From contig OZ023275.1 of assembly GCA_964007475.1 (NCBI GenBank), forward strand, positions 4,154,001 through 4,218,000: a stretch of DNA of 64,000 bases, read 5' to 3'. The notes under the pieces are model-generated. The model saw nothing but the letters and a program-made list of their open reading frames with translations. It searched no databases and was not told where the DNA came from. This DNA comes from Hybos culiciformis (lineage: Eukaryota > Arthropoda > Insecta > Diptera > Hybotidae). Every line of letters begins with the position of its first letter. The first letter of the stretch is position 1. The position numbers were made by a program, and so were the translations under genes. Below, piece after piece: positions 1 to 36,559 of the stretch.

Positions 1-229
1 ACCTGAACCAGAGCCGGAACCAGAACCTGAGCCAGAACCAGAGCCTGAACCTGAGCCAGAGCCTGAACCAGAACCAGAACCTGAGCCAGAGCCTGAACCA
101 GAACCTGAACCAGAGCCAACAACGGAAGCAGAGCCTACAACAGAACCAGAGCCTACAACGGAACCAGAGCCTACAACGGAACCAGAGCCTACAACGGAAC
201 CAGAGCTTACAACAGAACCGGGGGGTTAA
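1..229 (+). CDS. 3' end of an acidic Pro-Glu repeat protein (partial)
   Basis: An open frame runs from the window edge (first full codon at base 2) to TAA at 227-229. It encodes about 38 residues of alternating Pro-Glu dipeptides, then five Glu-Pro-Thr-Thr type repeats (TTEPEP), ending in LTTEPGG. The nucleotide repeat is only 12-15 bases long, so the array is a coding minisatellite. Its strand, acidic Pro/Glu/Thr composition and position 2.3 kb upstream of G1 fit the acidic C-terminal exons of G1 and G4, so it is probably the last exon of another member of the cluster. The signal-peptide exon lies outside the window, so membership is inferred from composition and context only. An AATAAA follows at 301-306. 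Confidence 0.75.
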
Positions 230-300
230 ATCTAAAAATTGTGCAAAAGAAAACTCGAAAAAAAAATTGTATTTAATTTATTATGTATACGTACTTAGTT

Positions 301-306
301 AATAAA
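301..306 (+). promoter_or_regulatory. poly(A) signal of the partial upstream gene
   Basis: AATAAA lies 72 bases after the TAA at 227-229, a normal distance for an insect 3' UTR. A T-rich, GT-containing stretch follows. Confidence 0.5.
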
Positions 307-833
307 ATGAAAAAATATATTTGTGTCTTCTAATAATTGTTTGTTGGAAAAAACAAGTATGTTATGTACAAACTAATAAAAACGTAACTAACTTGCTACT
401 TGATATATAGTACTTGATACATATTGTTTAAAAAAAATGTCATAGCAAACTAATTTGTTGAAAAACTAAATAAACTTTTAATCGGCTTATGAAAATAAAC
501 TAAAATAGTACATCTTTGCGGAACACAACAACATAGCAGACCGAAAGTTTTATGAAAAAGATCAATTCTAATACGAAAGCTTTCTGATTTAGCCTTATCG
601 TTCCATTACACACATTTTCGTTAAAACTTATTTTCACTGCTCATAGTACAACTTCTTATTCATTATTCATCACAATCTTATATTTCACAGTTCCCTTTTA
701 TTTATGTTACATTATACACTCTGCTCATTATTGAAATTCTTAAAAATTAAATTGTTCAGATTTTCAAATCTTCAGATTTTTATATTACGCAGATCTAAGA
801 ATTATTATGTGCATTATGTATTACTGAAAAATC

Positions 834-924
834 TAATTAATAAGCCCAGAAAAATAATCTTAAATATAACCAACTAATTATGTGTTGGTTATATTTAACT
901 TCATTTTTCTGGGCTTATTAATTA
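834..924. repeat. short hairpin (MITE-like palindrome)
   Basis: About 91 bases form a near-perfect inverted repeat. The left arm begins TAATTAATAAGCCCAGAAAA and ends in AACCAAC; the right arm begins GTTGGTT and ends in TTTTCTGGGCTTATTAATTA. The loop is about 9 bases. This is typical of a tiny non-autonomous foldback transposon, although no target duplication could be separated from the AT-rich flanks. Confidence 0.6.
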
Positions 925-2571: not shown

Positions 2572-5500
2572 ATGAAATGTTTATTAAGAATCGCTTTACT
2601 GTCAATTTTAATTTTGGTAAGAAAAAATTGATAGGAATCAGATATTTAAGGAAAAAAGTAGAAAATTTATTTATTTTTTTTTTTTTAACTTTTAATAGCA
2701 GTTTAAATTTGATAAAAATAATGATATTTAAATGCTAGCAAGATCGTAAACTAGTGAGTTTTTAAATTAATTAGTATAAATGGAAAATTATTTTGAATTT
2801 CTATTTTTTAACAATAATTTTGAATAATTTTGATTAGCGAACAAAAAAAACCATACCATTAAAAAAGTTCGATTTATTATTTATTTTAAAAAGTTGGTCT
2901 AAAAAAGTTGCTGGGCATGCATTTCAGATCTTTCTTATCACTTAGCATCAACACCATTGTTTCTAACATTCGTAGGCAAAAATAAATATAAATAGTATTT
3001 TCTTTATTCTACAGTGTATTTTTGTATGTTTGTCGTCAAGCGAAAATGATATAAAAGATGAAAACAACATCATTAGCATTTGGTCTTTAATTGAAGGACA
3101 AGCAAACAAAGCTCATCCGAAAAAAAGCGCACCTCCTAAGAAAGCACCTGCTAAGAAAGCACCTCCTAAGAAAGCACCTCCTAAGAAAGCACCTCCTAAG
3201 AAAGCACCTCCTAAGAAAGCACCTCCCAAGAAAAAAGCACCTCCTAAGAAAGCTCCTAAGAAAGCGCCAGCAAAGACTGGAGCTAAAAAAACTGCAGCCA
3301 AAGGCAATGCTAAAAAAACAGCAGCTAAAAAAACTGCAAAAGCACCAAAGAAAACTGCAGCAAAGAAAACTGCAGCAAAGAAAAATGGAGCAAAGAAAAC
3401 TGGACCAAAGAAAAGTTTAGCAAAGAAAACTGGAAATAAGAAAAAGGGGGTTAAAAAAGGTGGAGCTAAGAAATCTGGTGCAAATAAAGGAAAGGCTGGA
3501 GCAGCTAAGAAAAACGCAGCCAAGAAAAATGCAAAAGCCATTGGAAAGAAAAAAAATAATCCGAAAACCGGCGGAAATAAAAAAAATGGTAAGAAATCGG
3601 CTGCCAAAGGAAATAAAAGTGGCAATGGAAATAAGGGAGGAAAAAATATAAGTAAGTTTAATAGTGCAGTACACTAACATTGTTGGTATAATTAAAGTGG
3701 ATTAGTAACTAATGTTATATACTTATTACGTCTGTCTGAAAGTGAAATTTTCTTAATTCTATTGTTATAAACTTTTTTCGTAGATGCTAAGAAAAATGTA
3801 GCTAAAAAAAATAATACAAAAAAATCAGCGGCAAAAAATAATTCAGGTAAAAAAAAATCTCCAAAAACCGGAACTAGGAACGGAAATAATGCAGGCGAAA
3901 AAATTAAAACGGTTAATAACAAAAGTAAGTTGCATCAAAATTATTTTTAATAACAAATTTCACCCAAAGTCTTATAGTTTTTATTTTATAATATGAAATT
4001 TGTATGCAAGTACAGGAGTTAGAATAATGTTATTTTTGTACGTTGTTAGAGTTACATTTCATTTCGCCAATAAATCACCTCGAATTTTTTTTTTAAGTTT
4101 AAATTCTTTAGCGGGATATTGTTAAAAATTTTATGCAACGAAAAGAGGAAATAATCTTACAGAAGCAAATGACAAACTTGAAAATCGGGGAAATATAGTG
4201 ATGTAGCATGTCGACTAGGTCGTTAGCAAATATTTCGGTTAATTTTTGGTAAGGTTAAGTTAGAAAAGCTAAAAAAAAGTCGGCATAATTCTAAATTAAA
4301 TTGACAAAATAAATGTCACATGTTGCCACACAAAAACGTAGTATCTACCAAAAATTTGATTCTGTGTTAAAAAAATTATCTATTTTCTTTTATTTGTTTA
4401 ATAATTGAAAAAGAAATTATTATTTTCAAAAATCATTGCAAAAATCTATTGATATGACAAAAATATATCTAACAAAAGTTCACTTTACGAAAATAACAAA
4501 AATAATAAGTGTAACCTTAGATTACGAATCCGCTAATAAGACAGCTGCAGCTGGCGTTAATAATGAACAATGATTTTAATACTGCACTATGCAACTTACT
4601 TTTATTTTACAATTCATCCTTAAAAAATATTTTATGTCCTTGAAGAGAGAGTTATCGAACTTAGCAAAAAAAAAATTTGTAGAAAATTTCTATTCGAAAC
4701 ATATATTCTTCTTTCTTAATCTGAATCGATAAGTAAAATCAATTGATGTTTAAATTATATGTATATACATATATGTGACATGTTGCTACTGCTGTAGTAC
4801 CCTTTTCCATAGTTTTTATTTTCAACTGATTTTTAGATGTACAAATGATTGAAAAAAAAATATGAATCATACTATGTAACACATACATATGTTTTGCTCG
4901 TAACTTTCTCAATATTGAGTTCGGATTGATATATACTAACTTCTTACAAATTGATGACCAATTAATTATGTGAGATAAAATTATCATATTCTTTGGATAA
5001 CTTTCAAAGCAAATTAAAAACGTTTATATTTTGCTAGGCACCGCAGTAACTACTCCTCTACCTGAACCTGAAGCTGAAGATTATACTGATTACCCAGATT
5101 CAGACGCAGACGCAGAAGGAGAAGGAGATTATCCAGAAGGTGAAGCTGAATCAGATGCAGATTATCCGGACGAAGGGCCAGAATCCGGTGATGAATCAGA
5201 GCCTGAAGGAGAGTCTGAAGGAGAGCCTGAAAGTGAGCCTGAAGGTTCTTCAGGTCCGTCAACAAAACCTAAAGCAAACCCCACTCCTAAAGTAACAAAA
5301 AAACCGCCGCAAACACCTCCCCCAAGCAAAAAACCGGGACCACCTGCAAATGGACAGACAAACGCAGCAGAACCGACAGACGCTGGTGCAGAATCTGAAG
5401 GCGAACCCGATCAAGATGAAACTGGTTTAGACTCTGGCTCAGAACCTGATGCAGAAGAACCTGATGCAGAACCTGGGGCAGAACCTGGGGCAGAACCTGG

Positions 5501-5852
5501 TGGAGAACCTGGTGGAGAACCTGGTGGAGAACCTGGTGGAGAACCTGGTGGAGAACCTGGTGGAAAACCTGGTGGAGAACCTGGTGGACAGCATGGTGGA
5601 GATCATGATGGACATCATGGTGGAGATCATGATGGACATCATGGTGGAGATCATGATGGACATTCTGCTGGAACAACACAATCAACGGGGGCATCATCAC
5701 CTATCATATATATATCAAGTTCTCCAATACCTTCACAGCCAGAATCATCGGATGGATCAACAACACAATCAGCTAGCTCAGCGGAGGGTGAAGTATCCAC
5801 AATTGTAGCAGAAGAAACAGAAGAAACAGAAGAAGAAGGATCTGATTCTTGA
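2572..5852 (+). CDS. G1: secreted diblock protein, Lys/Ala/Pro-rich then Glu/Gly/His-rich
   Basis: Four exons were assembled: 2572-2616, 3015-3651, 3784-3924 and 5038-5852, all with GTAAG donors and AG acceptors. The first intron is phase 0 and the others phase 1. The 545-residue product begins MKCLLRIALLSILIL, joined to CIFVCLSSS, a good signal peptide of about 24 residues. A short non-repetitive segment with SIWSLIEGQ (about 36-44) follows. Residues about 48-274 are strongly basic, with tandem KKAPP units first, then Lys/Ala/Asn-rich sequence resembling a histone H1 tail. Exon 4 (about 276-545) is strongly acidic, with DYP motifs, a GEPG array (about 423-461) and three DHDGHHGG units (about 463-485). 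No globular domain is recognisable and Cys occurs only in the signal region. A secreted structural or adhesive role is inferred. An unusual short reading frame lies in intron 3. Confidence 0.85.
3121..3270 (+). repeat. 15-bp coding minisatellite (KKAPP units) in G1
   Basis: Tandem copies of CCTAAGAAAGCACCT-type units encode Pro-Lys-Lys-Ala-Pro. Several central copies are identical, indicating recent expansion. One copy carries an extra Lys codon, which preserves frame. The array lies directly after the SIWSLIEGQ motif and opens the polycationic block. Confidence 0.9.
3925..5037 (+). other. intron 3 of G1, with a possible relic exon
   Basis: This 1113-base intron runs from a GTAAGT donor to a TTGCTAG acceptor. 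Most of it is AT-rich with no signal. At 4521-4572, after a CCTTAG acceptor-like site, there is a frame in the correct phase reading (N)YESANKTAAAGVNNEQ then TGA. Its Ala/Lys/Asn composition resembles the basic exons. No good donor follows, so it may be an alternative last exon or a decayed exon. Confidence 0.5.
5482..5590 (+). repeat. 12-bp coding minisatellite (GEPG units) in G1
   Basis: About eight copies of GGTGGAGAACCT or close variants encode Gly-Gly-Glu-Pro. One copy has Lys in place of Glu. The array is nearly perfect, so it is likely to vary in copy number between individuals. It sits just before the His/Asp array in the acidic exon. Confidence 0.9.
5591..5664 (+). repeat. 24-bp coding repeat (DHDGHHGG) in G1
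   Basis: Three units with starts at 5601, 5625 and 5649 encode Asp-His-Asp-Gly-His-His-Gly-Gly with minimal variation. The dense His and Asp residues are of the kind that bind divalent metal ions in other secreted proteins; metal binding here is inferred. Confidence 0.85.
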
Positions 5853-8693: not shown

Positions 8694-9106
8694 AGTAGAT
8701 TACAACACATGTTAAGAAAATTTTTGTCGAGTTGTGTATACACAAAACACATGGACGCGCGTCAATACTTATATCACGAGACCGTTAGGTCGAGTGAAAT
8801 AATATTGACAAGTGTCCATGTGTTTTTGTGTATATACACAACGAGCTGTATAACAAATTTTATTAACATGTTTTGTATACTGTTTTAATGTGCATGTGAG
8901 AGGTAGTTGCAATCAATACATTTGCAATGCAAAAAATAAACAAAAGTTCAAAATGACGTAAGTAAATAAAATTTACTTAATACAGAGAATGTAAATAAAA
9001 TTTACTTAATTCAATAATTACATGTGTATTGACGCATGTAATATACCATTTACCGAATTAAATTTACGATTGTAAATACATCTTACCGCGACATGCACAT
9101 TAAAAT
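8694..9106 (+). mobile_element. two-part foldback element, copy 1 (full)
   Basis: This 413-base repeat occurs again at 47193-47598 and, inverted and partial, at 34092-34317. The first half (to about 8880) is a large palindrome: GTTGTGTATACACAAAACAC pairs with a right-hand copy, around a core containing ATATCACGAGACC. The second half (about 8881-9106) is bounded by TTTTAATGTGCATGT and its reverse complement ACATGCACATTAAAA. An internal 20-base segment ending AAAATTTACTTAA is duplicated. It has no coding capacity, so it is a non-autonomous MITE-like element. Confidence 0.75.
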
Positions 9107-9477
9107 TTATTATTTGTCGAAATGTCTAGATTTGTCCAATTCAATTAATTGAACAATTGTAACATATTATAAAATCTATTAAAGTAAATCAGGAATAATT
9201 GAATAATAAAATTATCGATTCTAATTGTTAGTAGATTCACTCAAACTTTCTAGTTCAATAAATTATTAAATTAAATTTTAAAAAATAAAATTAAATAAAT
9301 TAAGAAAATTAAAAAAAAATAAAAATATTATTCATTTTAGTTGATCAATTTTTATTGAAACAACACAAAATAATTCAATTTGTTACAATTTTTGTAACTT
9401 TAATCAAAAAGAATTTGTATCATAAAGTCCCATATAAAACATACAAATAAAAAAAATTAAAGAAATTATGTATATAC

Positions 9478-10611: not shown

Positions 10612-10629
10612 GATAAGTTCTTGCAATGA
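10612..10629 (+). promoter_or_regulatory. start-codon context shared by G2 and G3
   Basis: GATAAGTTCTTGCAATGA spans the G2 start. The matching G3 site at 20663-20680 is GATACGTTCTTGAAATGA, 16 of 18 identical. The similarity continues into exon 1 and supports a recent common origin. A TCAGT at 10587-10591 could be an arthropod initiator, but there is no clear TATA box 30 bases upstream. Confidence 0.4.
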
Positions 10630-13600
10630 ACTTTTTACGAATTGGGCTAATATTTGCCCTCTGTATTGTAAGTAGTAATAAAAAAAAAAAAGTTAAATAT
10701 TACAAATATTTTAAGTTATTTAGTTGATTACAAAGATCGCATTTTATAAAATTTTTTTTCTTCTATCCGAAATAAAAAAATAAAAATTTGAGAAGAAAGC
10801 AATGATTAGTTTATCAAAAATTTTTTAAATGAAACAAAAAAGGGGAATATGTGCTCACTTCTTTATCTTTTTTTTTACATTATCTTTTAAATTTTGGTTT
10901 TTTAATTCAAGAAATTTAAATATAAATGAATCGGTTGTTATCAGAAAATCTTTTTTTTTTCTTTAGTATGTTTATTCATATTCATGTATTACATTCGAAT
11001 AGAGCCATAGAGCCATACAAGAGATGATCCCTCATTAACATAAAAAATACTACGCTATCATAACTAAGAATATATGGCCGAATAACATTTTTTTATTTCT
11101 CCTGAAAATTTTAGAAAAATTGAGATGATCCCTTTTAAAACTCACCGATTCAAATAAATAATTTTATTTACAGTGAAACCTAAAAATTAAAAAAAAAACT
11201 TTTAACTTAATGTATATATTTATTACTTTTTCCGACCAAACATAAAAACGATTAGCAATAAAACTCTTTACTTTCTTAATTTAATAATTACTATATTATT
11301 TGTAGGTATTCAATATTAATTAACTTAATTTAATTAAAGCAATATGCATAGTGTACATATAATCGGTATATTGTACAGTCATTAAACACGTACTCTGAAA
11401 AATAAGTTCATTCCAACTTTTTTGCTATGAAAGTATTTCGTAAATTAAAATAAAAATTAAATAATAATGAGTTATTTTTCATATAGTGAAGTATTAACTT
11501 ATTGATCAGTGAATAATACATTTTGTCTGTGATATAATATCTAGATAGTACCTACTTATTTTTTTTATGTAAAAATATTAAATTTCTTCACTTTATCTTT
11601 AACTAGTGTATTTATTGCTCGCCTACATCAAAAAAACTCAAGAATGGTGAAAAATCAATACAAAAAAAAGCGCCTCACCCTAAAATAAAGCCAGCAGGTA
11701 AACATGACATCAAAACCAAAATTGTAAAAAATAATCCATTGAAAAAAAAGTCAGCGAAGATGCCAAAAAAGAATAAGGCAAATAAAAAAATTCAAAATCC
11801 AACTGCTGAGAAAAATAAGCCTGCAAATAAATCCAAAAATTTAAAAAATCAACTCAAAAAAAGTAATAATATGTTGAAAAAACAACTAAAACCAAAACCA
11901 ATTAAAACCAAGAAAAAAGCTAATTTAAAAACGAAATTGAAACCAAAAAAAAACAACACAACAATAAAACGAAAAAAGCAAAAACCAAAGAAGTTGAAAA
12001 AAAATGTTCCGAAGAATAATAATTCTAAAAATAAAAACTTAAAACAAAAAAATAAAAACAACGGAGCAATAAAACCAAGAACAAATAGTAAAAAAGAAAA
12101 AGCTAAATTGATGACTACTGAACCAACAAATAAACTAAATGTTCCTGCTAATAGAAATATCGACAACAAAAATAATAATACTATCGATATGAAAAACAAA
12201 ACAAATACGAAAAGTCAACAAAATAAGAAAAATGAAAATATCAAACCGTCAGCAGCAAATAAGGACATTAAGAGTATTCCAATGGGCAAAGCAATCAAAA
12301 TGAATGAAAATAATTCGCCTGTTAAAAGTTCTAACCAAAAGCCTAACCCAAAAAAGAGAATGAAAATGATAAAAAAAATTATGTTCAAAAGAAAAAAAAC
12401 GAATACCCTGAACAAAGATAGAATTCAAAAAATAATTAGGAAGGAAAAAAAAAAAATAGAACAAAAGAAAAACAATCTTAAGAGAAAACGAAAGATGATA
12501 AAAATAATAAGGCGTCAAAAAAAGCAAATGAAAAAACAAGAGAAAAGGCGAAAAAAGAAGATAATAAGGTTCATAAGGAGGAAAAATGGTAAGAGATATT
12601 TTTTTTCTATAATTAAAGTTTATTCTGAGTAAAAAAAAAAGAGTTTGAAACTAAAGTTGGTTTCTAAAATTATTTGAATTTCAATTTATTCATTTGAATG
12701 TAAATGTATAGACTAATTATTTATACTTTGTTGCAATTAAAATACTAGAGTAATTTTTTTTTTAATTTTCAAAGTAGCAACGTCGATCCATACAACCGCT
12801 AAAACCACACAATCACCAACCGCCAAAATTAATTCTTCGTTGTTCACTGAAACTTCTAATGTTTTCACATCTATAAACTCGCAACAATCAACTCAAATTG
12901 TCGACATATCAACAACAAATGTTGAAGCAACGAGTTCACAACCATTAACCAAAACCAGTCAACTAAGTACAAGTGATTCAAAAACTGTAACAGATGCTAC
13001 AAAACCTGAAGCTACAAAATTACCCTCTGAAAAAATCACCGAAAGCATATTTGCACGACCAATCGCACCGGTCGAAACAAACGCAAATCTTGGAACACTA
13101 GCAACCAGTATAGTTCCGGAAACTACAGAACTATCAGCAACTACTACAAAACTATCAACAACAACAACAGTACCTTCAAGTTCTTTTGAGGTAACAACGG
13201 CAAAACCAACAACTGCACAAACTACAACTTCAACATTAGCATCTAGCATAATACCTGAAACAACTACAACAAAACAATCAACAACAGCTACAACATTAGC
13301 CACTAGCACAATTCCTGAAACAACGACAACAAAACAACCAACTACAACTACAACGCTAGTAACAAGCACAATACCTGAAAGTATGGCCACAAAACAATCA
13401 ACAACAACAATAACAATACCAACAAGTAATTTCGAGGTCACAACAACAAAACGAACTAGTGCACAAACGACAATAACAAGCACAAAACCTGAAACAACGA
13501 CCACAAAACAATCAACAACAACTACAACACTAGCAACAAGCACTATACCTGAAAGTACGACCACAAAACAACCAACAACAACAATAACAATGCCAACAAG

Positions 13601-16600
13601 TACTTTCGAGGACACAACAACAAAACCAACTAGTGCACAAACGACAACTACACCTCTAACAACTAGCACAATACCTGAAACAACGACCACAAAAGAACCA
13701 ACAACAACTACAACACAAGCCACTAGCGCAATTCCTGAAAATACGACCACAAAACAACCAACAACTACAATTCAAACAAGTACTTTTGAGGTCACAACAA
13801 CAAAACCAACTAGTGCACAAACGACAAGTACAACACTAGCAACTAGCACAATACCTGAAACGACGATCACAAAACAACCAACAACAACTACAACACAAGC
13901 AACTAGCACAATTCCTGAAAGTACGACCAAACAACCAACAACTACTATTCCAACAAGTACTTTTGAGGTCACAACAACAAAACCAACTAGTGCACAAACG
14001 ACAACTACAACTCTAGCAACTAGCCCAATACCTGAAACAACGACCACAAAACAACCAACAACAACTACAACACAAGCCACTAGCACAATTCCTGAAAGTA
14101 CGACCACAAAACAACCAACAACTACAATTCCAACAAGTACTTTTGAGGTCACAACAGCAAAACCAACTAGTGCACAAACGACAAGTACAACACTAGCAAC
14201 TAGCACAATACCTGAAACGACGACCACAAAACCACCAACAACAACTACAACACCAGCAACTAGCACAATTCCTGAAAGTACGACCAAACAACCAACAACT
14301 ACTATTCCAACAAGTACTTTTGAGGTCACAACAACAAAACCAACTAGTGCACAAACGACAACTACAACTCTAGCAACTAGCACAATACCTGAAACAACGA
14401 CCACAAAACAACCAACAACAACTACAACACAAGCCACTAGCACAATTCCTGAAAGTACGATCACAAAACAACCAACAACTACAATTCCAACAAGTACTTT
14501 TGAGGTCACAACAAGAAAACCAACTAATCCGCAAACGACAACTTCAACACTAGAAACTAGCACAATACCTGAAACAACGACCACAAAACAACCAACAACA
14601 ACTAAAACACAAGCCACTAGCACAATTCCTGAAAATACGACCACAAAACAACCAACAACTACAATTCCAACAAGTACTTTTGAGGTCACAACAACAAAAC
14701 CAACTAGTGCACAAACGACAACTACAACACTAGCAACTAGCACAATACCTGAAACAACGACCACAAAACAATCAACAACAACTACAACACAAGACACTAG
14801 CACAATTCCTGAAAGTACGACCACAAAACAACCAACAACTACAATTCCAACAAGTACTTTTGAGGTCACAACAACAAAACCAACTAGTGCACAAACGACA
14901 AGTACAACACTAGCAACTAGCACAATACCTGAAACGACGACCACAAAACCACCAACAACAACTACAACACCAGCAACTAGCACAATTCCTGAAAATACGA
15001 CCAAACAACCAACAACTACTATTCCAACAAGTACTTTTGAGGTCACAACAACAAAACCAACTAGTGCACAAACGACAACTACAACTCTAGCAACTAGCAC
15101 AATACCTGAAACAACGACCACAAAACAACCAACAACAACTACAACACCAGCAACTAGCAAAATTCCTGAAAGTACGACCAAACAACCAACAACTACTATT
15201 CCAACAAGTACTTTTGAGGTCACAACAACAAAACCAACTAGTGCACAAACGACAACTACAACTCTAGCAACTAGCACAATACCTAAAACAACGACCACAA
15301 AACAACCAACAACATCTACAACACAAGCCACTAGCACAATTCCTGAAAGTACGATCACAAAACAACCAACAACTACAATTCCAACAAGTACTTTTGAGGT
15401 CACAACAAGAAAACCAACTAATCCGCAAACGACAACTTCAACACTAGCAACTAGCACAATACCTGAAACAACGACCACAAAACAACCAACAACAACTAAA
15501 ACACAAGCCACTAGCACAATTCCTGAAAATACGACCACAAAACAACCAACAACTACAATTCCAACAAGTACTTTTGAGGTCACAACAACAAAACCAACTA
15601 GTGCACAAACGACAAGTACAACACTAGCAACTAGCACAATACCTGAAACGACGACCACAAAACCACCAACAACAACTACAATACCAGCAACTAGCACAAT
15701 TCCTGAAAGTACGACCACAAAACAATCAACAACAACTACAACACAAGCCACTAGCACAATTCCTGAAAGTACGACCACAAAACAACCAACAACTACAATT
15801 CCAACAAGTACTTTTGAGGTCACAACAACAAAACCAACTAGTGCACAAACGACAAGTACAACACTAGCAACTAGCACAATACCTGAAACGACGACCACAA
15901 AACCACCAACAACAACTACAACACCAGCAACTAGCACAATTCCTGAAAGTACGACCAAACAACCAACAACTACTATTCCAACAAGTACTTTTGAGGTCAC
16001 AACAACAAAACCAACTAGTGCACAAACGACAACTACAACTCTAGCAACTAGCACAATACCTGAAACAACGACCACAAAACAACCAACAACAACTACAACA
16101 CAAGCCACTAGCACAATTCCTGAAAGTACGATCACAAAACAACCAACAACTACAATTCCAACAAGTACTTTTGAGGTCACAACAAGAAAACCAACTAATC
16201 CGCAAACGACAACTTCAACACTAGCAACTAGCACAATACCTGAAACAACGACCACAAAACAACCAACAACAACTAAAACACAAGCCACTAGCACAATTCC
16301 TGAAAATACGACCACAAAACAACCAACAACTACAATTCCAACAAGTACTTTTGAGGTCACAACAACAAAACCAACTAGTGCACAAACGACAAGTACAACA
16401 CTAGCAACTAGCACAATACCTGAAACGACGACCACAAAACCACCAACAACAACTACAATACCAGCAACTAGCACAATTCCTGAAAGTACGACCACAAAAC
16501 TACCAACAACTACAATTCCAACAAGTACTTTTGAGGTCACAATAACAAAACCAACGACAACTACAACACTAGCAACTAGCACAATACCTGAAACAACGAC

Positions 16601-20676: not shown

Positions 20677-23600
20677 ATGATTTTTTTACGAATTGGACTA
20701 ATATTTGTCCTTCCTATTGTGAGTAATTAAAATAAATATTTTTCTTTCTGAAATATAAATATTATTTAATTTAAGTTTAGTTTCACTATTTTATTAACTA
20801 TTTTACAATTTTAAACACAAACAAAATTATATATAAATTTCGACACAAACGAATTGATCAATTAATGGCAATTACAATTTTTCATCAAAATTCATTATTA
20901 TCCTTTAAAAACTTCAACTATTATGGTAATTTAGCAATTTAAGCATATTCTAGAATATATTCCGAAACCTTTAGACATATAGGGCACACCAATATTTTTC
21001 TGAAAATCAACGCAAAATATATATATTTAAATGGATACAAAACTAAATAAATAAAGTGATACCATGGGCTCGATTCAGTGAACTCAAAACACATATATTT
21101 TATATGCAAACCGCAGTTCGCGTTCAAAACTATAGTTGAGACAGTTAATTCACATAGAAAGAAATGTTGTAGAAAATGCAAGAAGAACTGCAATAGTTTG
21201 GAGAGATATTTTTTTTAAAAGAATCGAGAAAACATTTATCTAACGGAACTTCGTAAAATTTAATTTTACAGTCCCGTCAGTCCTCAATTCCACAAATTCG
21301 TATCGAATTTGTAGCGGGAGTGCCTGAACAGAATTTTCGGCATCAATTGTAAAAATTTGTTGAATGAAAGTAGTGCTCAATTTTTGTCGAAGCAATGTTA
21401 TGGCTTTTGAGCCGAACCCAATTAATAATTTGTTCTCGATCTTCTGTCCTTAATAATTAGCTCTCGATCTGGTTGGTCCTTTAATACATTTAGATTGATT
21501 AACTAGTCTGGCTAAATTTTACTAAAACTACGAATGTTTGGTAAAAACCATTCTATTCGGTGGAATTTTGTTAAAAGACCGCAAGAAATTTTCTTCCCAT
21601 AATAAGAAGATTTTGGGTATGTTTAAAAAAATTAAAAAAGGGGAAAAGTTTCAATTCGTGGGAGTTTCTGATATTTTTTTCTAAATAATAAGAAAAAAAA
21701 ACTTATGGTAATATAGCTTTTGCAATCTCGCACATCTAATGCCGTCTGCGGTACATCAGTGTGCCATGGCACAACGATTGCGGAACACTGATAATGTTAA
21801 ATATATGGATAATGCTTTAGAGATCAATTTTTACTTTGTTTTTTTTTACTGTATCTTTAAGTTTTTGATAGATGATCCATGATTTTTTTTATAACTTCAA
21901 TTTACTTATCTTTGTTTGTAAATACTTTTCAGGTATTAAGTACAATTTTAATAAATTATTTAATTTTGTCTAAATTAGTGTATTTATACCTCGCCAACAC
22001 CAAGTGGGAGTACTTCACAAGATTCTGTAAGCACCATTCAGAATGAATCCACTATTAAGAAAATAAAATTATCAAGTAAGTCTGAAACCAAATTTCAAAA
22101 CATAAAGATAATTCCAGTTATTAAAACATCAGCATCTGAACCGCAAACTAGGTCGCAAAAGTTGAATAAAAATATACAGAAGAAGCAAACGCATCTTATT
22201 TCCAATATCATTCAAGAAAATTATAATAATATGAAAACGAAACCATTGAGTAAATCACAGATGAAATATAAAATAATAAATCAAAATCGAACTACAGAAC
22301 AACAAAAATTCAAGTTAATGGAAACAAAAAAAGAAACTAAATTGAAACCATCAAAGAATTTGAAAATAAAAGTTGCTAAAATAGAATCAAACCAAGAAAC
22401 AAAACTATCTGCTAATAAAAATACCAATAATAAAAATAAATATGCAATCGATATGAAAACTAAAACAAATGACACTATTCAACAAAATAAAAATAAAACT
22501 CAATACGAAGAAAATAATAAAAAAGAAAATAAAAAGGTAATGCCACAAAACGACATGATCATTAAAGACGAATATAAGAAAAAAATTAATATGCTCAATA
22601 AAAAAGAACAGAAGAGATCATTCTTTAAGCGCAAGGCTGAGAAGCAAAGAAACAAAACTAAAATTTTTAAAATAAAAACTTTACAAAATAAAATGTATTT
22701 AAAAAACAAATTAAATAACCTTGCAAATAGAATTAGAATGAAAATGCAAAAAATAAATAAATTTAACAAGATCGATAATTTGCTAAGAAGAAACCAATTA
22801 ATTGATAAAAGTGTAATAAATCAAAGAATGAGAAAAAAGTTTAAAGTTACAATTGAGAAAAAGAAATTTACAACCAAATCCAGAATTACGAAACCAAAAT
22901 TCGAAAAAATTATAAAAACTACAAAACAAAAAATAACCACAAAATCTAAAACAACTACAATTCCTAAAACATCGACCGCAACAAGAACAAACATTTCAAA
23001 ACTGGATACACCCTTAAATAAAAAAAGAACTGCTCGAACGACTACAAAACCCAAAACAACACCAAAATTTAACACAAATATAAAGTCTAAAACACCGACT
23101 GCAACAAGAACAAAAACTACAACACATGGTAAACCCATCATTCAAACCAGAATCGCTCCAACAACGACAGCAGTCAAAACTACTACAATCGACAAATCGA
23201 AGAAAACTACATTTGTTGCAGCAATTACTGGAAGACATGAAACTAGTGGTGGCCAATATTCGCCAATATTTGCCAAAAATGTGAATTCAAAAATAGCACA
23301 TCCAACGACCACAGCAACAACAAAAGCTACAGCACCAACAATGCCAAAAATAACCCGAAAAGCAAAAATCAACGCAATTGCAAAAACAACAAGTATTCAA
23401 CCAACGACCCAGCAATCAACAACCACATCATTCGAAAAAGTCATTACAAACATAAACTTAGAAACAAGTACAAGAAAATCAACCACTACAAAACTTGATA
23501 CAACCATTATTCAAAAAAAAATTGCTCCAACAAGGACTACAATGAAAACGACTATAATCGCTAGCTCACTAAAATTAAATCCGTCTACGTCAGCACCTAC

Positions 23601-26600
23601 TCGAAGTCCTGAAACTAGTAGAGGTGTTGAAACAAAGACAAATCAACTAACATCAAGATCAATTAAGGCATCTACAACCGTCAACACAACGACAACACAT
23701 CCAACAACTATTGAGACAACAACAAAACTCCCATCAACTATAACGTCAGAAATAACAACTAGAAGGCCTGAAATAACTACAACAACTGCAACAAGTACAA
23801 CAACATCAGCAACCACCAAAACTGATGCAACCACCATTCAAACAAAACTTGCTCCGACAACAACAGCAACTGAAGCGACTACAAAAACATCTACTTCTGT
23901 TACCCCTATTACAACAACAGGATCGACTCGAAGTTCTGAAATTAGCAGAGGTGTTGAAACAACAACAAAACAAGGAACATCCAGATCAATTGAGACATCT
24001 ACAACCGTCAACACAACTATAACACATCCAACAACTGTTGAGACAACAACAAAACTCCCATCAACTATAACGTCAGAAATAACAACTAGAAGGCCTGAAA
24101 TAACTACAACAACTGCAACAAGTACAACAACATCTGCAACCACCAAAACTGATGCAACCACCATTCAAACAAAACTTGCTCCGACAACAACAGCAACTGA
24201 AGCGACTACAAAAACATCTACTTCTGTTACCCCTATTACAACAACAGGATCGACTCAAAGTTCTGAAACTAGCAGAGGTGTTGAAATAACAACAAATCAA
24301 GGAACATCCAGATCAATTGAGTCATCTACAACCGTCAACACAACTATAACACATCCAACAACTGTTGAGACAACAACAAAACTCCCATCAACTATAACGT
24401 CAGAAATAACAACTAGAAGGCCTGAAATAACTACAACAACTGCAACAAGTACAACAACATCAGCAACCACCAAAACTGATGCAACCACCATTCAAACAAA
24501 ACTTGCTCCGACAACAACACCAACTGAAGCGACTACAAAAACATCTACTTCTGTTACCCCTATTACAACAACAGGATCGACTCGAAGTTCTGAAATTAGC
24601 AGAGGTGTTGAAACAACAACAAAACAAGGAACATCCAGATCAATTGAGACATCTACAACCGTCAACACAACTATAACACATCCAACAACTGTTGAGACAA
24701 CAACAAAACTCCCATCAACTATAACGTCAGAAATAACAACTAGAAGGCCTGAAATAACTACAACAACTGCAACAAGTACAACAACATCAGCAACCACCAA
24801 AACTGATGCAACCACCATTCAAACAAAACTTGCTCCGACAACAACAGCAACTGAAGCGACTACAAAAACATCTACTTCTGTTACCCCTATTACAACAACA
24901 GGATCGACTCAAAGTTCTGAAACTAGCAGAGGTGTTGAAATAACAACAAATCAAGGAACATCCAGATCAATTGAGACATCTACAACCGTCAACACAACAC
25001 ATCCAACAACTGTTGATACAACTACAAAACTCCCATCAACTATAACGTCAGATATTTCTGACGTTACAAGGCCTGAAATAACTGCAACAACTGCAACAAG
25101 TACGACAACATCAGCAACCACCAAACGTGATACAACCACCATTCCAACAAAACTTGCTCCGACAACAACAGCAACTGAAGCGACTACTTCTACTTCTGTT
25201 GCCCCTATTACAACAACAGGATCGACTCGAATTTCTGAAATTAGCAGAGGTGTTGAAACAACAACAAAACAAGGAACATCCAGATCAATTGAGACATCTA
25301 CAACCGTCAACACAACTATAACACATCCAACAACTATTGAGACAACAACAAAACTCCCATCAACTATAACGTCAGAAATAACAACTATAGGGCCTGAAAT
25401 AACTACAACAACTGCAACAAGTACAACAACATCAGCAACCACCAAAACTGATGCAACCACCATTCAAACAAAACTTGCTCCGACAACAACACCAACTGAA
25501 GTGACTACAAAAACATCTACTTCTGTTACCCCTATTACAACAACAGGATCGACTCGAAGTTCTGAAATTAGCAGAGGTGTTGAAACAACAACAAAACAAG
25601 GAACATCCAGATCAATTGAGACATCTACAACCGTCAACACAACTATAACACATCCAACAACTGTTGAGACAACAACAAAACTCCCATCAACTATAACGTC
25701 AGAAATAACAACTAGAAGGCCTGAAATAACTACAACAACTGCAACAAGTACAACAACATCAGCAACCACCAAAACTGATGCAACCACCATTCAAACAAAA
25801 CTTGCTCCGACAACAACAGCAACTGAAGCGACTACAAAAACATCTACTTCTGTTACCCCTATTACAACAACAGGATCGACTCAAAGTTCTGAAACTAGCA
25901 GAGGTGTTGAAATAACAACAAATCAAGGAACATCCAGATCAATTGAGACATCTACAACCGTCAACACAACACATCCAACAACTGTTGATACAACTACAAA
26001 ACTCCCATCAACTATAACGTCAGATATTTCTGACGTTACAAGGCCTGAAATAACTGCAACAACTGCAACAAGTACGACAACATCAGCAACCACCAAACGT
26101 GATACAACCACCATTCCAACAAAACTTGCTCCGACAACAACAGCAACTGAAGCGACTACATCTACTTCTGTTGCCCCTATTACAACAACAGGATCGACTC
26201 GAAGTTCTGAAATTAGCAGAGGTGTTGAAACAACAACAAAACAAGGAACATCCAGATCAATTGAGACATCTACAACCGTCAACACAACTATAACACATCC
26301 AACAACTGTTGAGACAACAACAAAACTCCCATCAACTATAACGTCAGATATTTCTGACGTTACAAGGCCTGAAATAACTGCAACAACTGCAACAAGTACG
26401 ACAACATCAGCAACCACCAAAATTGATGCAACCACTATTCAAACAAAACTTGCTCCGACAACAACAGCAACTGAAGCGACTACAAAAACATCTACTTCTG
26501 TTACCCCTATTACAACAACAGGATCGACTCAAAGTTCTGAAACTAGCAGAGGTGTTGAAATAACAACAAATCAAGGAACGTCCAGATCAATTAAGACATC

Positions 26601-27486
26601 TACAATCGTCAACACAACACATCCAACAACTGTTGAGACAACAACAAAACTCCCATCAACTATAACGTCAATTATTTCTGACGTTACAAGGCCTGAAATA
26701 ACTGCAACAACTGCAACAAGTACGACAACATCAGCAACCACCAAACGTGATACAACCACCATTCCATCAAAACTTGCTCCGACAACAACAGCAACTGAAG
26801 CGACTACAAAAACATCCACTTCTGTTGCCCCTATTACAACAACAGGATCGACTCGAAGTTCTGAAATTAGCAGAGGTGTTGAAACAACAACAAAACAAGG
26901 AACATCCAGATCAATTGAGACATCTACAACCGTCAACACAACTATTACACATCCAACAACTGTTGAGACAACAACAAAACTCCCATCAACTATAACGTCA
27001 GAAATAACAACTATAAGGCCTGAAATAGCTACAACAACGACAACATTAGCAACCACTAAACGTGATTCAACCACCATTAAAACAACATCTACTCCGACAA
27101 CTACAATTGTTAAAGCAACAATTAAAACCAAAGCAGCCAAAATGTCAGATATAGACATAAAGCAACCAACTAGTACAATATCGAAAGCAACGATCACAGA
27201 ACCAATAACAAAAGTATCAACAACTCCTGTAATTCGTACAAGCACTGCATCTAAAGCTGTTGAGAGAACTGCATCTATAACAACTTCTGAAATATACAAA
27301 ACTCCAATAGCAAACAAAGTGCGTGATATATTGATTACACAAGAAGAACTACTTAAACAATTACCACAGCAGAAAAAACAAGAAGTTCTGACACAAATAG
27401 AGCTAGTAAAACAATTACAAATGCTGGAAAAACTACAATCCCAAAAACTTCTACAACTGCTGCAGCAGATGGAGCGACAGTCATAA
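20677..27486 (+). CDS. G3: large secreted Thr-rich repeat protein with Gln/Leu helical tail
   Basis: Two exons: 20677-20718 (GTGAGT donor) and 21979-27486, giving about 1849 residues. MIFLRIGLIFVLPI joined to CIYTSPTPS is nearly the G2 signal peptide. Residues about 50-390 are Lys/Asn/Gln-rich and basic; Thr content then rises. About eleven 109-residue units occupy roughly residues 540-1710. The last 50 residues (EELLKQLPQQKKQEVL through LLQLLQQMERQS) are Leu/Gln-rich and look like an amphipathic helix or coiled coil, replacing the acidic tail of G2. Unlike G2, the basic and Thr-rich parts lie in one exon, so the intron was lost here or gained in G2. An internal GTAAGT near 22076 is probably not used because the frame stays open. 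O-glycosylated secreted structural protein is inferred. Confidence 0.85.
20719..21978 (+). other. intron 1 of G3
   Basis: This 1260-base phase-0 intron runs from GTGAGT to AAATTAG before TGT. It contains a 12-base palindrome GTGCCATGGCAC at 21761-21772 inside a weak ATCAGTGT...ACACTGAT inverted repeat. No exon-like sequence was found; the minus-strand frame at 20939-21193 is not supported. Confidence 0.7.
23590..27060 (+). repeat. 327-bp coding repeat array (109-residue units) in G3
   Basis: AGAAGGCCTG recurs at 23761, 24088 and 24415, exactly 327 bases apart. About eleven units are present, each reading S[SP]E[IT]SRGVE..., SRSIETSTTVNTT, THPTT, KLPSTITS, RPEIT and TKLAPTTT. Two unit types tend to alternate, TRSSEISRG with ETTTKQG and TQSSETSRG with EITTNQG. 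A second polymorphism, SEITTRRPE versus SDISDVTRPE, marks later units together with TKRDTTTIP. This indicates duplication of dimers with gene-conversion-like mixing. Confidence 0.9.
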
Positions 27487-29741: not shown

Positions 29742-31746
29742 ATGATCTTATTAAGAATAGGATTTTTATTAATCGCATTTTTGGTAAGTTCTTCATCAAA
29801 GTTATTAAGATAGGCCTACAGTTTAGTTCAAAAGTACCTATAAGAAAGTAAAAAAAAAATATTTGCTTTATTAAATTTTTTTAAAAAATTTTCAGAATGA
29901 ACAAACATTTTTTAGTTTCATTGAAAAAAAAAAATTATGTTGAAATTAATTATTTTTTTAAATATAAATTATTATCAGTATAGGAACATTTGGTGAACAA
30001 CGTAATTTAAAATTCTAAATCAAATAATAAATTGCCAAATTATTTTATATTTTTATTTCAGTGTTTTTCTGAAACTAAAACTAGCAAAAATGATGACAAT
30101 AGGATCAAAAGTATTTGGTCTATGATGGAAGGTCAGGCGGGGCCTAAGAAAGTTAACCCAAAAACTCATAACATAGCAAAACAAAAAGTACCAAAAACGA
30201 AGGCTAAAAAAAAACCGCCACAAAAAAAAGCAGTTCAAAAAAAGCCGCCACAAAAAAAAGCAGTTCAAAAAAAGCAACCTCAAGCTAAAAAAAGTCCTAG
30301 TACAGTAAAGAAAAGCGGTGGCAAAGTAAACAAAAATAACAGTGGTCCGAAGAAAACGAATGTGAAAAAGGGAGCTGTTAAAAATAAAGCTAAAAAAGCT
30401 GTAGTGAAAAATCCAAATGTAAAAAAACAAAATCAGAAAACTAATAATAAGGTTCAAAAGAAAAAAAATAATTCAAATAAGAAAAAAAAACCAATCAATA
30501 ATAAGAAACCAGTAACCAAAGCAGTAACAAAAGCTGGAAATGGAGGGGTTACCAAAAGCATTACCAATAGTAGTAAGTCCATAACATTTAAACGTTAGGG
30601 GGCTTTTTTTTTTCTATATTTTTAGTTGTTAAAGGCTAAATATTTTTATAAAGATCACAATTTCGTTAAATCGTTCGAGAAAGAATTTTCTTTTATTTAA
30701 CAAAAAATGTATGCATTATATTTTAGATATTATTATCTATATAAGTACAAACATTCTTTAATAAAATTTAAAAAAAAATTTTTGTTCATTACTTTACAGA
30801 GCCAACTCATGCTGTGCCTACAAAAGTCGGAGTAATAGTAAGATCAACCACGAGCAAGGCACACGCAGAGGCTGAAGCCGCAAAATCTAAGGCGGAAGCG
30901 GAAGCTGAAGCAAAAGCAGACGCTGAAGCAGAAGCAGATTATGAAGCAGAAAAAGATTATGAAGCCGAACCAGATTATGAAACCGAACCAGATTATGAAG
31001 CAGATTATGAAGGAGACGCCGCCGAAGCAGAAGGAGACGCAGAGAGTGAATCAGAAAGTGAAGCAGAAAGTGAAGCAGAAAGTGTTGCAGAAAGTGAAGC
31101 AACAAGTGAAGCAGAAAGTGGATCAGAAAGTGAAGCAGAAAGTGATTCAGAGAGTGACGCAGGAGGTAATGGAGACAGTGAAAGTGAAGGAAACTCAGAA
31201 GGTGAAACAGATGGAGATTCACTTATAAGTACACCTAAAATTGGAATATTTACAACTTCGATACCAAATACAGGAAAAACAAGTAAACCATCGAGTACTA
31301 CACCAGAAGCAGCTGGTTCTAGTTCACTTGCTCCTAATTCTGATACAGATGAAAAAAGCGAAGAATCAGACGACGAATCATCAGAAACAGATGAAGAATC
31401 AGAATCAGGCGAAGAATCAGAATCAGGCGAAGAATCGGAATCAGAAGAGGAACTACCAACATCTCAATTCGAAATATCCTCCACACCCCAACCAGAATCA
31501 GCTTCGAGTAAACCAATATCCTCAATATCTAAACCAGAAACATTTTCCAGTAAACAAATTACGTCGTCCACTACAGACACCATATCAACACCTCAACTGG
31601 AAACAACAACTGTAGTAACTGCAGAGGAAGATCAAAGTGGAGATAAAGTAGAGGGAGAAGAAACGGAAGCAGAAGGAGAAACAAAGGCAGCAGACGGAGA
31701 AGCAGAAGGAGAAGCAGAAGGTGAAGCAGAAGATGAAGCAAAATGA
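29742..31746 (+). CDS. G4: secreted diblock protein, Lys-rich then Glu/Ser-rich
   Basis: Three exons: 29742-29783, 30062-30572 and 30800-31746, with introns of phase 0 then phase 1 as in G1; 499 residues. MILLRIGFLLIAFL joined to CFSETK forms the signal peptide. SIWSMMEGQ (about 31-39) matches the G1 motif. Residues about 42-185 are polycationic, with QKKAVQKKPP repeats and Lys/Asn runs. Exon 3 is strongly acidic: AEAEAD, then DYEAEPDYETEPDYEAD, then many Ser-Glu-x-Glu units, then a Thr/Ser/Pro-rich stretch and an EGEAEGEAE tail. Ser-x-Glu sites suit secretory-pathway kinases, so phosphorylation is possible. The TGA at 31744 is followed in frame by 12 more codons of the same kind. Overall it is a clear paralogue of G1. 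Confidence 0.87.
30210..30285 (+). repeat. basic coding repeats (PQKKAVQKKP) in G4
   Basis: Two near-identical 30-base units (CCGCCACAAAAAAAAGCAGT type) encode Pro-Pro-Gln-Lys-Lys-Ala-Val-Gln-Lys-Lys. They are followed by a diverged copy (QPQAKK). The array is the counterpart of the KKAPP array in G1. Confidence 0.8.
31018..31170 (+). repeat. 12-bp acidic coding repeats (SEAE) in G4
   Basis: GAAAGTGAAGCA units and close variants (GTTGCA, GGATCA, GATTCA) encode Glu-Ser-Glu-Ala. The array makes a Ser/Glu block following the DYE segment. Confidence 0.85.
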
Positions 31747-33380: not shown

Positions 33381-33492
33381 CAGATGCAATCATTTAGATG
33401 CATCTGCGTAAATAATGAAAAAATTTAGATGCATCAGCGTATATAATGAAAAAATTTAGATGCATCAGCGTAAATAATGAAATCATTTAGGT
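33381..33492. repeat. 31-bp tandem repeat, about 3.5 copies
   Basis: ATTTAGATGCAT recurs at 33392, 33423 and 33454, with a diverged copy at 33485, giving a 31-base period. The unit reads ATTTAGATGCATCAGCGTAA plus an AATAATGAAA tail. No coding role is apparent. Confidence 0.85.
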
Positions 33493-33628
33493 GTTTCGTA
33501 TTGAATATTACTTAATACCTTAACAAACATAATATCTCTCACAATATTTCAATACAGCCAAATACAAAAAAAAAAAAAATTAGAAAAAATGAGAACTACG
33601 TAATTCATACACAAAAATAATATCACTA

Positions 33629-33830
33629 AAAGAAAGAGAAATTAAAGGATAATTAACGTGGAAAAATTCCCTTGGCTTCTTTTATCTGTAAAAGAAAGAG
33701 AAATTAAAGGATAATTAACGTGGAAAAATTCCCTTTGCTTCTTTTATCTGTAAAAGAAAGAGAAATTAAAGGATAATTAACGTGGAAAAATTCCCTTGGC
33801 TTCTTTTATCTGTAAAAGAAAGAGAAATTA
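33629..33830. repeat. 62-bp tandem repeat, about 3.2 copies
   Basis: AGAAAGAG recurs at 33631, 33693, 33755 and 33817, exactly 62 bases apart. Units are almost identical (GGCTTC against TGCTTC in one copy), so the array is recent. It lies between G4 and G5. Confidence 0.9.
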
Positions 33831-34091
33831 AAATAAAATTTAAATAAAGAAGAAGATAAAGAAGAAAAATAAACAAAGTAAAGGGAACATAATTTATTTT
33901 TTCAAGCAATATTTCTTACCCCTTCTACCTCTTCTTCAATAACTTCGTATTTGAATATAAAATTAATACCCAAACGTATTTTTTTCTCTTTTGTATATTC
34001 TTCTTTATATTTTCTTCTCAAAAGATTTTTGTCTTGTTCTTTATTTTGTCTTGTTCTTTATTTTTTATTATAAATTATCTCTATATTCTCT

Positions 34092-34317
34092 CTTTGCAAC
34101 TACCTCTCCCCTATGCATTAAAGCAGTATATAAGATATGTTAACAAAATTTGTTATAACAACTCGTTGTCTATACACACAAACACATAGACACTTGTCAA
34201 TATTATATCACTCAACCTTCGGTCTCGTGATATAATTTTGACTCATGTCTATGTGTTTGTGTGTATAGACACCTCGTAATTAATAACAAATTTAGTTAAC
34301 ATATATTATAATCTACT
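34092..34317 (-). mobile_element. foldback element, copy 3 (partial, inverted)
   Basis: Read on the minus strand it begins AGTAGATTATAATATATGTT, contains the palindrome with GTGTATAGACAC arms around a TATCACGAGACC-type core, and continues into TTTAATGCATAGGGGAGAGG, matching the start of the second half of the copies at 8694 and 47193. The remainder of the second half is missing. Confidence 0.65.
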
Positions 34318-35840
34318 ATATATATATATGAAATTCTAAAAAAAATGTTTCATAAATCAATTTTGTAGATGTATTAACATTAACATATGTTAAGAATGAT
34401 ATTTATGTTATTTGTACACATTTTGTAACAGCCGGATTTTGAGATAATAATTAAATATGTATGAATAAAAACAACACCTCATTATTTACTTAACCTAAAG
34501 TAAAATATATCAAAAATATTTCCAACATTTATGCAAAGATCAAATTAAATTAGTTTGTAGTTCTGGATTTTATTGATTAATTAACAAAATAGTGACATGC
34601 ATTTTTCACTTGAATTTTGCTTTATTAAAATTACTTAATTCATTCTGTAAAAAACATTCTTTAAAATGATTTCTTTTAATTAAGCTAATTTCCTCCTTAT
34701 GTCTAAATATTTTATTATTATAGAGAGTTAAAATAAAAAATTTTAGTTTCTTTAAATATACAAGTACATATTATGTAAAGGTATAATACACATAATAAGT
34801 ACAGAATAAACATAAAATTTATATAATATTGATTTCGCAATCTAAAAGTACAAAATTCTTACTTATTAAAAGTGAGTTTGTCAAATCTTTTAAATAATTT
34901 TTCCCATATTCGAAAAAAAACAAATAAATTAATGAGCCTTCAAAACTTAGCGGTTTTTTCCTTAGACTGGTTTTATTATATGCATATGCAAAAACAGAGG
35001 ATCTGTATCATAGATAATTGATTTTATAAATAGTTACATGCGATTTTTATTTTGAGCCCATTTTCCATCAAAAATAAAAAACGTATTGTATTGTCCATCT
35101 GTCCGTATTTCCATCTGTATGCACGCATTAAAATGCTAGTAACTCTTGAACTAGTTGACGATGCCGATCATATTAATACCAAAATATGCGCCAGCCAAAC
35201 CAAATCAAGAGAATCTTCGAGTCTCGACAACGGAGTTATAAGCTCTCAAACTGCGAAGGGTCGAAATAATTTTCATATAATATTTATATTATTTTAATTT
35301 ATTTTTAAGCTTATTTTTTATTTTTCGTAGTATATTTGTATATATTTTAATTAACATAATAAATATATCTAATATGTAAAATTTAAAAAAATATAAATTG
35401 AACTTTTTTCAATAATTGAATAATAATAATTGTTACTCAATAGCTCTGAGTATCTTAGATTTTGACTTTAGACTACTTTTATAAAATTGATGAAATAAAT
35501 TTTTAACAATTTGGAGCCAGCATTTTCTCAAGTTTGTCGTATATTATATTAACCTAATTCATCCTCCAAGGACATAAAAAGCAAATATCAATATTTTAGT
35601 TGTTCTTAAGACAACAACATTTTCTTCGGAACAATTTTGTTTTTTATGCAAGTCATACACGAAAGAAACTATTTTAAGTAAATAAAAAAATTTGTATAAT
35701 TTTTTTATGTTTGTTTCTGATAGCAAAAATAATTTAATATAAATTGCAAGATTTTCGTAAGACAATTCGAGTAATAATTCTTGTGCAAAACTATCAAGTT
35801 GAGAAATACATTAGTTTTCTTAAAGATAATGTCCAACACA

Positions 35841-36559
35841 ATGAATTATTTAAGATTTGGGCTAGTTTTTGCTTTAGCATTTGTAAGTAGAATAATTTTT
35901 TTAACTACGTTATATATACATAAGTTGAGATGCTTAAGAACTTGTAATTAATTTCTCAATAAATAAATTGAAAAGCAGTTTGTTTCATAAAATATAAATA
36001 TTGTGCAAACTTTTATAAGTATTAAAAGACAGTATATTATTTCATTTTACTTTTCACACCGGTTCTGTTAGTATAGATACGATAATCATAATTAATCCTT
36101 ATTTTCAGTGAAGTGCTTTTACATAAATATGAATGTATAAATTTAAATAAAAAAAATATTTGATTTTTTTTAAAGTTAACAAATAAAATTTCAATAATAT
36201 ACGTATTTATTATATTCCAGTGTGCTTCAAGCCATCCAATTCCACAGGAAATCAATAATTCTGAAAATTGGCTTCCAATTGCAGCCCAAATAGCTCCAGA
36301 AAATACCGAGGCAACAAATGTTGTTCCACCAAATGAAATACATCCAATCGATTCATTGAATTCCGATATAGGTGAACAACCCATTCAGCCTCAAAAAGTA
36401 ATGGTGAAATCATTTGAAAAAAAAATAACAAAAACAATAACTAAAGGAAATAAACAAATTAAGCAGACCGTTCACATAATAAAATTCGTTCCCGGTCCCG
36501 AAACAACCAAATCTACCAAGAAAAAAACGATAACTAAAACAAAGACTGAAAAAAACTAA
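35841..36559 (+). CDS. G5: short secreted family member
   Basis: Two exons: 35841-35882 and 36221-36559, with a 338-base phase-0 intron; 126 residues. MNYLRFGLVFALAF joined to CASSHPIPQ makes a signal peptide with the family split. An in-frame ATG at 35829 would add four residues (MSNT); the later start is chosen because 14 codons match G2-G4. After the signal, NSENWLPIAAQ may align with the SIWSLIEGQ motif of G1 and G4 (W-x2-I-x2-Q). An Ile/Pro/Glu-rich middle follows, then a Lys/Thr-rich basic end (KKITKTITKGNKQIKQ and KKKTITKTKTEKN). It has no long repeat array and no acidic exon. It may be a compact form of the family or one that lost its large exon. No recognised domain. Confidence 0.78.

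Follow-up and report, generated by a model that had tools for sequence, protein, structure and literature searches.

The 64-kb window considered here (the whole stretch of Hybos culiciformis DNA that was analysed, G000:C3:4154001-4218000), taken with the sequence just to its left, carries a tandem family of six genes, hereafter g0 to g5, with a common predicted signal-peptide exon, and these genes probably encode secreted polyampholytes and mucin-like chains, nearly free of cysteine, that would condense by charge into a glue, a mucus or a lining. All six genes lie on the plus strand, head to tail, with intergenic gaps of 1.8-4.8 kb, and the predicted proteins measure 936 (g0), 545 (g1), 2366 (g2), 1849 (g3), 499 (g4) and 126 (g5) amino acids. 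The window was examined together with 100 kb on each side, i.e., 264 kb with a G+C content of 24.6%, within a genome of 342.4 Mb in 509 contigs. A preliminary description of the window had counted five complete genes and a partial one; the five first exons were found exactly where it had placed them (2572, 10626, 20677, 29742 and 35841), and the presumed partial gene at 1-229 turned out to be where a complete sixth gene (g0) ends, with its first exon 4.3 kb left of the window and only the end of its last exon inside.

The gene models were predicted from the sequence, the strongest donor consensus being chosen where alternative GT-AG pairs exist, and in all six models the splice sites are intact and the spliced frame runs uninterrupted to one stop codon. 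The exons are as follows, in window numbering.

g0 exon 1, -4336..-4295, plus strand: MNYSRICYILATVL, without the L of the motif given in the preliminary description.
g0 exon 2, -3358..-1228, plus strand: intact frame, with a phase-0 intron before and a phase-1 intron after the exon.
g0 last exon, -408..229, plus strand: acidic Glu-Pro/Thr-rich tail, with the TAA stop at 227-229.
g1 exon 1, 2572..2616, plus strand: predicted signal-peptide half, MKCLLRIALLSILIL, donor GTAAGA.
g1 exon 2, 3015..3651, plus strand: remainder of the predicted signal peptide, IISIWSLIEGQA motif and Lys/Ala/Pro-rich block; aligns with g4 (z 6.1).
g1 exon 3, 3784..3924, plus strand: continuation of the Lys-rich block, phase 1 at both ends.
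g1 exon 4, 5038..5852, plus strand: Glu/Asp-rich tail.
g2 exon 1, 10626..10667, plus strand: MNFLRIGLIFALCI, donor GTAAGT.
g2 exon 2, 11607..12588, plus strand: Lys-rich block; aligns with g3 (z 8.8).
g2 last exon, 12778..18854 (acceptor 12775 equally possible), plus strand: Thr-rich repeat block, then acidic tail.
g3 exon 1, 20677..20718, plus strand: MIFLRIGLIFVLPI, donor GTGAGT.
g3 exon 2, 21979..27486, plus strand: Lys-rich block, Thr-rich 327-nt repeats and Gln/Leu/Lys-rich end.
g4 exon 1, 29742..29783, plus strand: MILLRIGFLLIAFL, donor GTAAGT.
g4 exon 2, 30062..30572, plus strand: IKSIWSMMEGQA motif and Lys-rich block.
g4 last exon, 30800..31746, plus strand: Glu/Asp/Ser/Ala-rich acidic tail.
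g5 exon 1, 35841..35882, plus strand: MNYLRFGLVFALAF, donor GTAAGT.
g5 exon 2, 36221..36559, plus strand: short, mildly basic protein end.

The shared first exon is what holds the family together. It comprises 14 codons, except in g1, where there are 15, it is followed in all six by a phase-0 intron located inside the predicted signal peptide, and the second exon begins with TGT in five genes and with TTT in g0; every part of the pattern previously described for the five complete genes (a first exon of 14-15 codons, a phase-0 intron and a TGT-initiated second exon) was seen again. Note that an in-frame ATG at 35829, four codons 5' of the proposed start, means that exon 1 of g5 may have 18 codons. 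Scanning both strands of the 264 kb with the expression M-x(1-5)-L-R-[IFLV]-[GAS] and an in-phase donor returned five sites, which are those of the five genes noted before, and g0 exon 1 was located by reading upstream of the Lys-rich exon of this gene. A profile of the last 12 codons of exon 1 and 6 donor bases was then evaluated by leaving out each of the six genes in turn: on both strands of the 264 kb, the site of each held-out gene outranks all positions outside the family, and the strength of this result resides in the rank, the held-out scores being modest for g0 (17.1 bits) and g1 (12.3 bits). With the profile built from all six genes, the family sites score 36.2-51.5 bits and the next-best place 11.7 bits, and maxima on simulated Markov DNA range from 6.9 to 20.8 bits (20 runs of 528 kb). 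As judged from these comparisons, the six genes share a homologous exon 1. No seventh site was found by the profile scan of both strands within 100 kb on either side of the window.

Behind this exon, the similarity becomes selective. Alignments of the front parts of the proteins (15 pairs, with z computed against 100 shuffles that kept local composition) gave z values of 6.1 for g1-g4, 8.8 for g2-g3 and 7.6 for g2-g5, and of at most 2.6 for the remaining 12 pairs. By these alignments g1 and g4, like g2 and g3, are similar beyond exon 1, and we read the g2-g5 similarity as one that runs through the first exon. Directly after the predicted signal peptide, g1 and g4 have in common the motif IxSIWSxxEGQA. 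At the DNA level, g2 and g3 are 73% identical over 147 nt (10541-10687 vs 20596-20736), a segment that covers exon 1 and the sequence upstream of the ATG. Among words shared by the promoters of at least five genes, only 7-letter ones were found, which are common in the flanks, and none of 8 or 9 letters. The number of exons is three or four in g0, g1, g2 and g4, and a phase-1 junction precedes the last exon in their preferred models, in which all introns after the first are in phase 1 (one each in g0, g2 and g4, and two in g1).

The composition of the proteins indicates what this exon would carry into the secretory pathway. Counted per 50 residues, charge is positive at the front and negative in the tail of g0, g1 and g4, and g2 has the same two ends, ~1,700 residues apart with a Thr-rich repeat between them; g3 combines a Lys-rich front with Thr-rich repeats without an acid tail, and g5 is short and mildly basic. 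The segregation of charge exceeds the maximum of 300 composition shuffles in four proteins, with observed values against shuffle means of 299/87 (g0), 141/23 (g1), 171/63 (g2) and 135/33 (g4). The oppositely charged blocks proposed earlier are therefore present, and both charges sit in one chain in these four proteins; the accompanying statement that the rest of each protein is low-complexity (Lys-, Thr- or Glu-rich) fits g5 poorly, as this protein is only mildly biased and its charges are not segregated. Thr-rich mucin blocks occur in g2 (45.5% Thr in the repeat block) and g3 (38.3%), so that g2 alone has both kinds of sequence, and its acidic tail is built on a recurring ETETEI-[EV]-W-[VI]-TEPE. 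Beyond residue 25, cysteine is absent from five proteins and occurs once in g0, and tyrosine is found 1-9 times per protein. Each of the six proteins has one N-terminal hydrophobic stretch with acceptable -3/-1 positions, and no further transmembrane-like window was found in any of them beyond that stretch. The secretory module previously suggested is well supported by these features, namely the single hydrophobic stretch (6/6), the charge segregation (4/6) and the Thr repeats (2/6).

At E <= 10, a search of 5.8 billion proteins yielded no relative for g5 (54 candidates) or for the head of g4 (residues 1-70, 7 candidates); it covered these two of the six proteins and needs shared 5-residue words. 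This collection does hold fly proteins, since the RNase P subunit p29 gene just beyond the window (Pfam PF01868, 64578-65231, minus strand) matched those of Musca vetustissima (58%), Stomoxys calcitrans (57%), Eupeodes corollae (57%), Condylostylus longicornis (52%) and Contarinia nasturtii (43%), with E <= 0.001 in 12 of 214 candidates. No Pfam family exceeded its cut-off in nine pieces of the proteins (the g0 last exon, g1 exon 3 and the first part of the g4 last exon being left aside), and PDB returned for g5 one match, at E 0.54, and none over the cut-off. Among the matches listed from the open-licence literature, none described a secreted fly protein that joins a Lys block to an acid block within a single chain. 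Most likely, the cluster makes a lineage-specific secretion.

We infer the secretion, tissue and material of the products, and the following sequence of events would account for the features above. The signal peptide would send all six products into one secretory granule, where Lys blocks may pair with Glu/Asp blocks, within a chain or from one chain to another, to give a dense, nearly charge-neutral condensate; with almost no cysteine for disulfides, charge is the obvious source of cohesion. Both g2 and g3 would tether O-glycosylated, water-holding mucin blocks through their Lys-rich ends (g2 also through its acidic end), and these blocks, if O-glycosylated like the PTTTK repeats of Sgs3, would hold water and keep the chains extended. 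After release, a change in salt, pH or water content may set or swell the condensate. For the Sgs3 repeats of Drosophila, O-glycosylation was seen both in cultured cells and in vitro, and it was suggested to shape the granules, according to passages of PMC6115407. Module exchange would find a natural site at the phase-1 junction that precedes the last exon.

As a material, the proteins can be set beside coacervate-type adhesives with long blocks of opposite charge, a feature found in g0, g1, g2 and g4 and not in g3 or g5. In the glue of the sandcastle worm, polybasic and polyacidic secreted proteins reportedly offset each other's charge in granules and form complexes when mixed, as stated in part of PMC11277488. 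In that glue the charges pair mostly from one protein to another (four are polybasic, one polyacidic and one zwitterionic), whereas four of the six proteins here carry both charges. Its chemistry involves DOPA and phosphoserine, which differs from the present proteins with their few tyrosines and no enrichment of S-x-[ED]. The idea of a phosphoserine silk or glue was rejected on the count of this motif alone: against shuffle means, S-x-[ED] sites are too few in four proteins (g0 2/9.9, g1 4/6.2, g2 8/16.4 and g4 7/13.6), and the counts of g3 (21/13.6, with a shuffle maximum of 24) and g5 (1/0.5) do not leave the range of the shuffles. As for secreted mucins, defined by a signal peptide and PTS-rich tandem repeats, only g2 and g3 correspond, the signal peptide being a predicted one; unlike in typical mucins, their repeats stand behind a Lys-rich front, in g2 also before an acidic tail, and there is no cysteine past residue 25.

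Several observations weigh against a family of charge-condensing secreted proteins. The charge-block rule applies to four of the six genes, as g3 (113 vs a shuffle mean of 115) and g5 (5 vs 7.3) are not charge-segregated, and g0 aligns little with the others beyond exon 1 (z -0.9 to 2.6). The signal peptides were called by hydropathy and the -3/-1 rule only; the frames of g2 and g4 are also kept by other GT-AG pairs in other phases; and an A[AT]TAAA hexamer is absent from the 250 nt nearest to the g5 stop. The codon evidence points in two directions: differences between g1 and g4 by codon position (65/76/113, against 110/118/116 for random pairing of the same codons) show a third-position excess, the pattern expected of translated sequence, and those between g2 and g3 (123/106/155) are only mildly better than random pairing (166/185/207), both tests using protein-guided alignments of low-complexity sequence, which favour a coding pattern. 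Between repeat units, a synonymous excess is absent in g2 (mean pS/pN 0.035/0.045, 52 pairs) and g3 (0.011/0.023, 16 pairs), so that the mucin repeats appear to have kept their reading frame with no purifying selection seen; nonsynonymous differences that equal or exceed synonymous ones are expected for young, homogenised repeats with little constraint beyond frame and composition. Finally, long open frames are cheap at this composition, as an antisense frame of 1425 aa in g2 makes clear.

Among the alternatives, the one that survives best keeps the material and changes the organ: the same secretion may serve as an eggshell or egg glue, a male accessory-gland plug, a gut or Malpighian mucus or a cuticle lining, which we regard as a quite real prospect, though one short of probable. 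The sequence names no tissue, and a negatively charged mucin, Mur18B, is present in Malpighian tubules, according to the passages of PMC6115407 concerned. A larval salivary, puparial-glue-like secretion is our first guess for the tissue, a tentative one, preferred over these organs by analogy only. Salivary secretions of Diptera also include the DNA-puff proteins of sciarids, larval salivary products used for cocoon building in the account given in part of PMC10889529; the present cluster is set beside them by description only, and in the one-gene p29 tree the gall midge Contarinia stands apart from this genome. A fungus-gnat origin, at first suggested by the low G+C and by the silk-making larvae of such gnats, is disfavoured by this tree.

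The salivary analogy raises the question of true homology, i.e., of Sgs1/3/7/8/Eig71Ee genes that drifted past recognition and now form this lineage's own version of the Sgs glue. Resemblances are numerous: like here, the Drosophila genes show tandem clustering (Sgs3/7/8), an intron in the signal peptide and Thr-rich repeats in some members, as set out in sections of PMC6352337, and the long Thr-rich repeats of their large members have counterparts in g2 and g3 (2/6), with TTTK-like units. Pro-Glu repeats are recorded there for Sgs5 of several Drosophila species, and the p29 tree places the genome with Eupeodes, Musca and Stomoxys, hence with cyclorrhaphan flies, apart from Condylostylus and Contarinia (fork 82/82, not starred; one gene, 13 rows, midpoint root). 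Going by this one gene, the species is likely a brachyceran and probably a cyclorrhaphan. In the same sections (PMC6352337), however, the family is characterized by a signal-peptide intron of phase 1 whose position is conserved and by a conserved C-terminal part, which is cysteine-rich in Sgs7/8, whereas the intron is in phase 0 in all six genes here and, judged by composition against the published descriptions, a cysteine-rich C-terminus is missing. Judged by the phase-1 intron, which is that family's own criterion, the cluster falls outside Sgs1/3/7/8/Eig71Ee, and the likeness to fly salivary glue genes that had been proposed earlier stands for composition and clustering and fails for the signal-peptide intron. 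The joining of Lys and Glu/Asp blocks in one chain is a further difference, and the lack of any Pfam family over cut-off or database relative in the searched pieces, down to E <= 10 for g5 and the g4 head, also argues against homology. Drifted Sgs genes, already disfavoured by the intron phase, are an unlikely source of the cluster.

Slightly more doubtful still is the idea of cationic host-defence precursors, in which the Lys block would be antimicrobial and the acidic tail a neutralising pro-piece cut off after secretion. A net-positive block does lie beside a net-negative one; the two charges partly cancel in g1 (+79/-62), and the balance tips to the negative side in g4 (+53/-82). Against such processing, none of the six proteins has an R-x-[KR]-R site, the blocks reach about 180-700 residues, and the mucin blocks of g2 and g3 would be left unexplained. 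Usual antimicrobial peptides are far shorter than these blocks.

It is very improbable that the locus holds no functional protein genes and consists of spreading simple repeats open by chance, or of decaying copies. The repeat units without synonymous excess and the openness of low-complexity DNA in several frames by composition, of which the antisense frame in g2 is an instance, would agree with it. However, splice sites and frames are kept and exon 1 is retained in six of six genes, and tandem-repeat periods are multiples of 3 only within exons, in all 21 exonic rows (overlapping, from seven distinct arrays) and in neither of the two rows that lie elsewhere. The two non-exonic arrays (33392-33490 and 33627-33832, with periods of 31 and 62) are the only ones that score at least 150 outside exons. 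Least credible of all are nuclear histone-H1-like or sperm basic proteins, as the contact of Pfam HC2 (histone H1-like, PF07382) with the g1 Lys block (E 8.1e-4, 20 bits) stays under the cut-off of 40 and the same chain has a predicted signal peptide and an acidic tail.

The spacers and flanks of the cluster hold other elements. A foldback element at 9467-10326, with 221-nt arms (97% complementary) and inner 87-nt arms (95%), ends 300 bp 5' of the g2 start codon, and a short element is present in two related copies (8692-8912 and 34094-34319, 81%, on opposite strands) in the spacers before g2 and g5, the second copy containing 67-nt inverted repeats. About 700 bp 5' of g0 exon 1, a minisatellite of GGGCGGAAGTGA-like units (window -5530..-5043) is open on both strands and looks non-genic. 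Broken frames at 44569-45168 resemble by eye the end of a non-LTR reverse transcriptase, with no match in Pfam. Further away, exons of an emp24/p24 gene and of an arginyl-tRNA synthetase gene (window 74107-74484 and 78508-79260) are ordinary neighbours, and an exon at window -75195..-74341 has a by-eye likeness to part of a transcription factor. Elsewhere in the assembly, COX1-like pieces occur outside the main mitochondrial-type contig C509 (G000:C215:21142-22007 and 45257-46577, G000:C3:44776390-44776983 and G000:C2:22105930-22106061) and are possibly nuclear copies or further mitochondrial sequence.

Altogether, the most specific form of the charge-condensing reading, which we put forward as a speculative possibility, is a one-chain condensing glue of a fly lineage, in which each core molecule would bring its own polycation and polyanion block, setting would be electrostatic without disulfides, mucin brushes would be added through the same Lys-rich socket, and cationic, mucin and acidic modules would be swapped at a phase-1 boundary behind one signal exon. 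If true, a single gene family would provide a natural and genetically compact series of self-complementary block polyampholytes, with modules split at phase-1 junctions, and the way in which charge patterning alone packs and sets an animal secretion would become directly testable. Such a family would also offer a cysteine-free template for bioadhesive design, and it would be a clear case of the reuse of a signal-peptide exon to launch unrelated low-complexity cargo.

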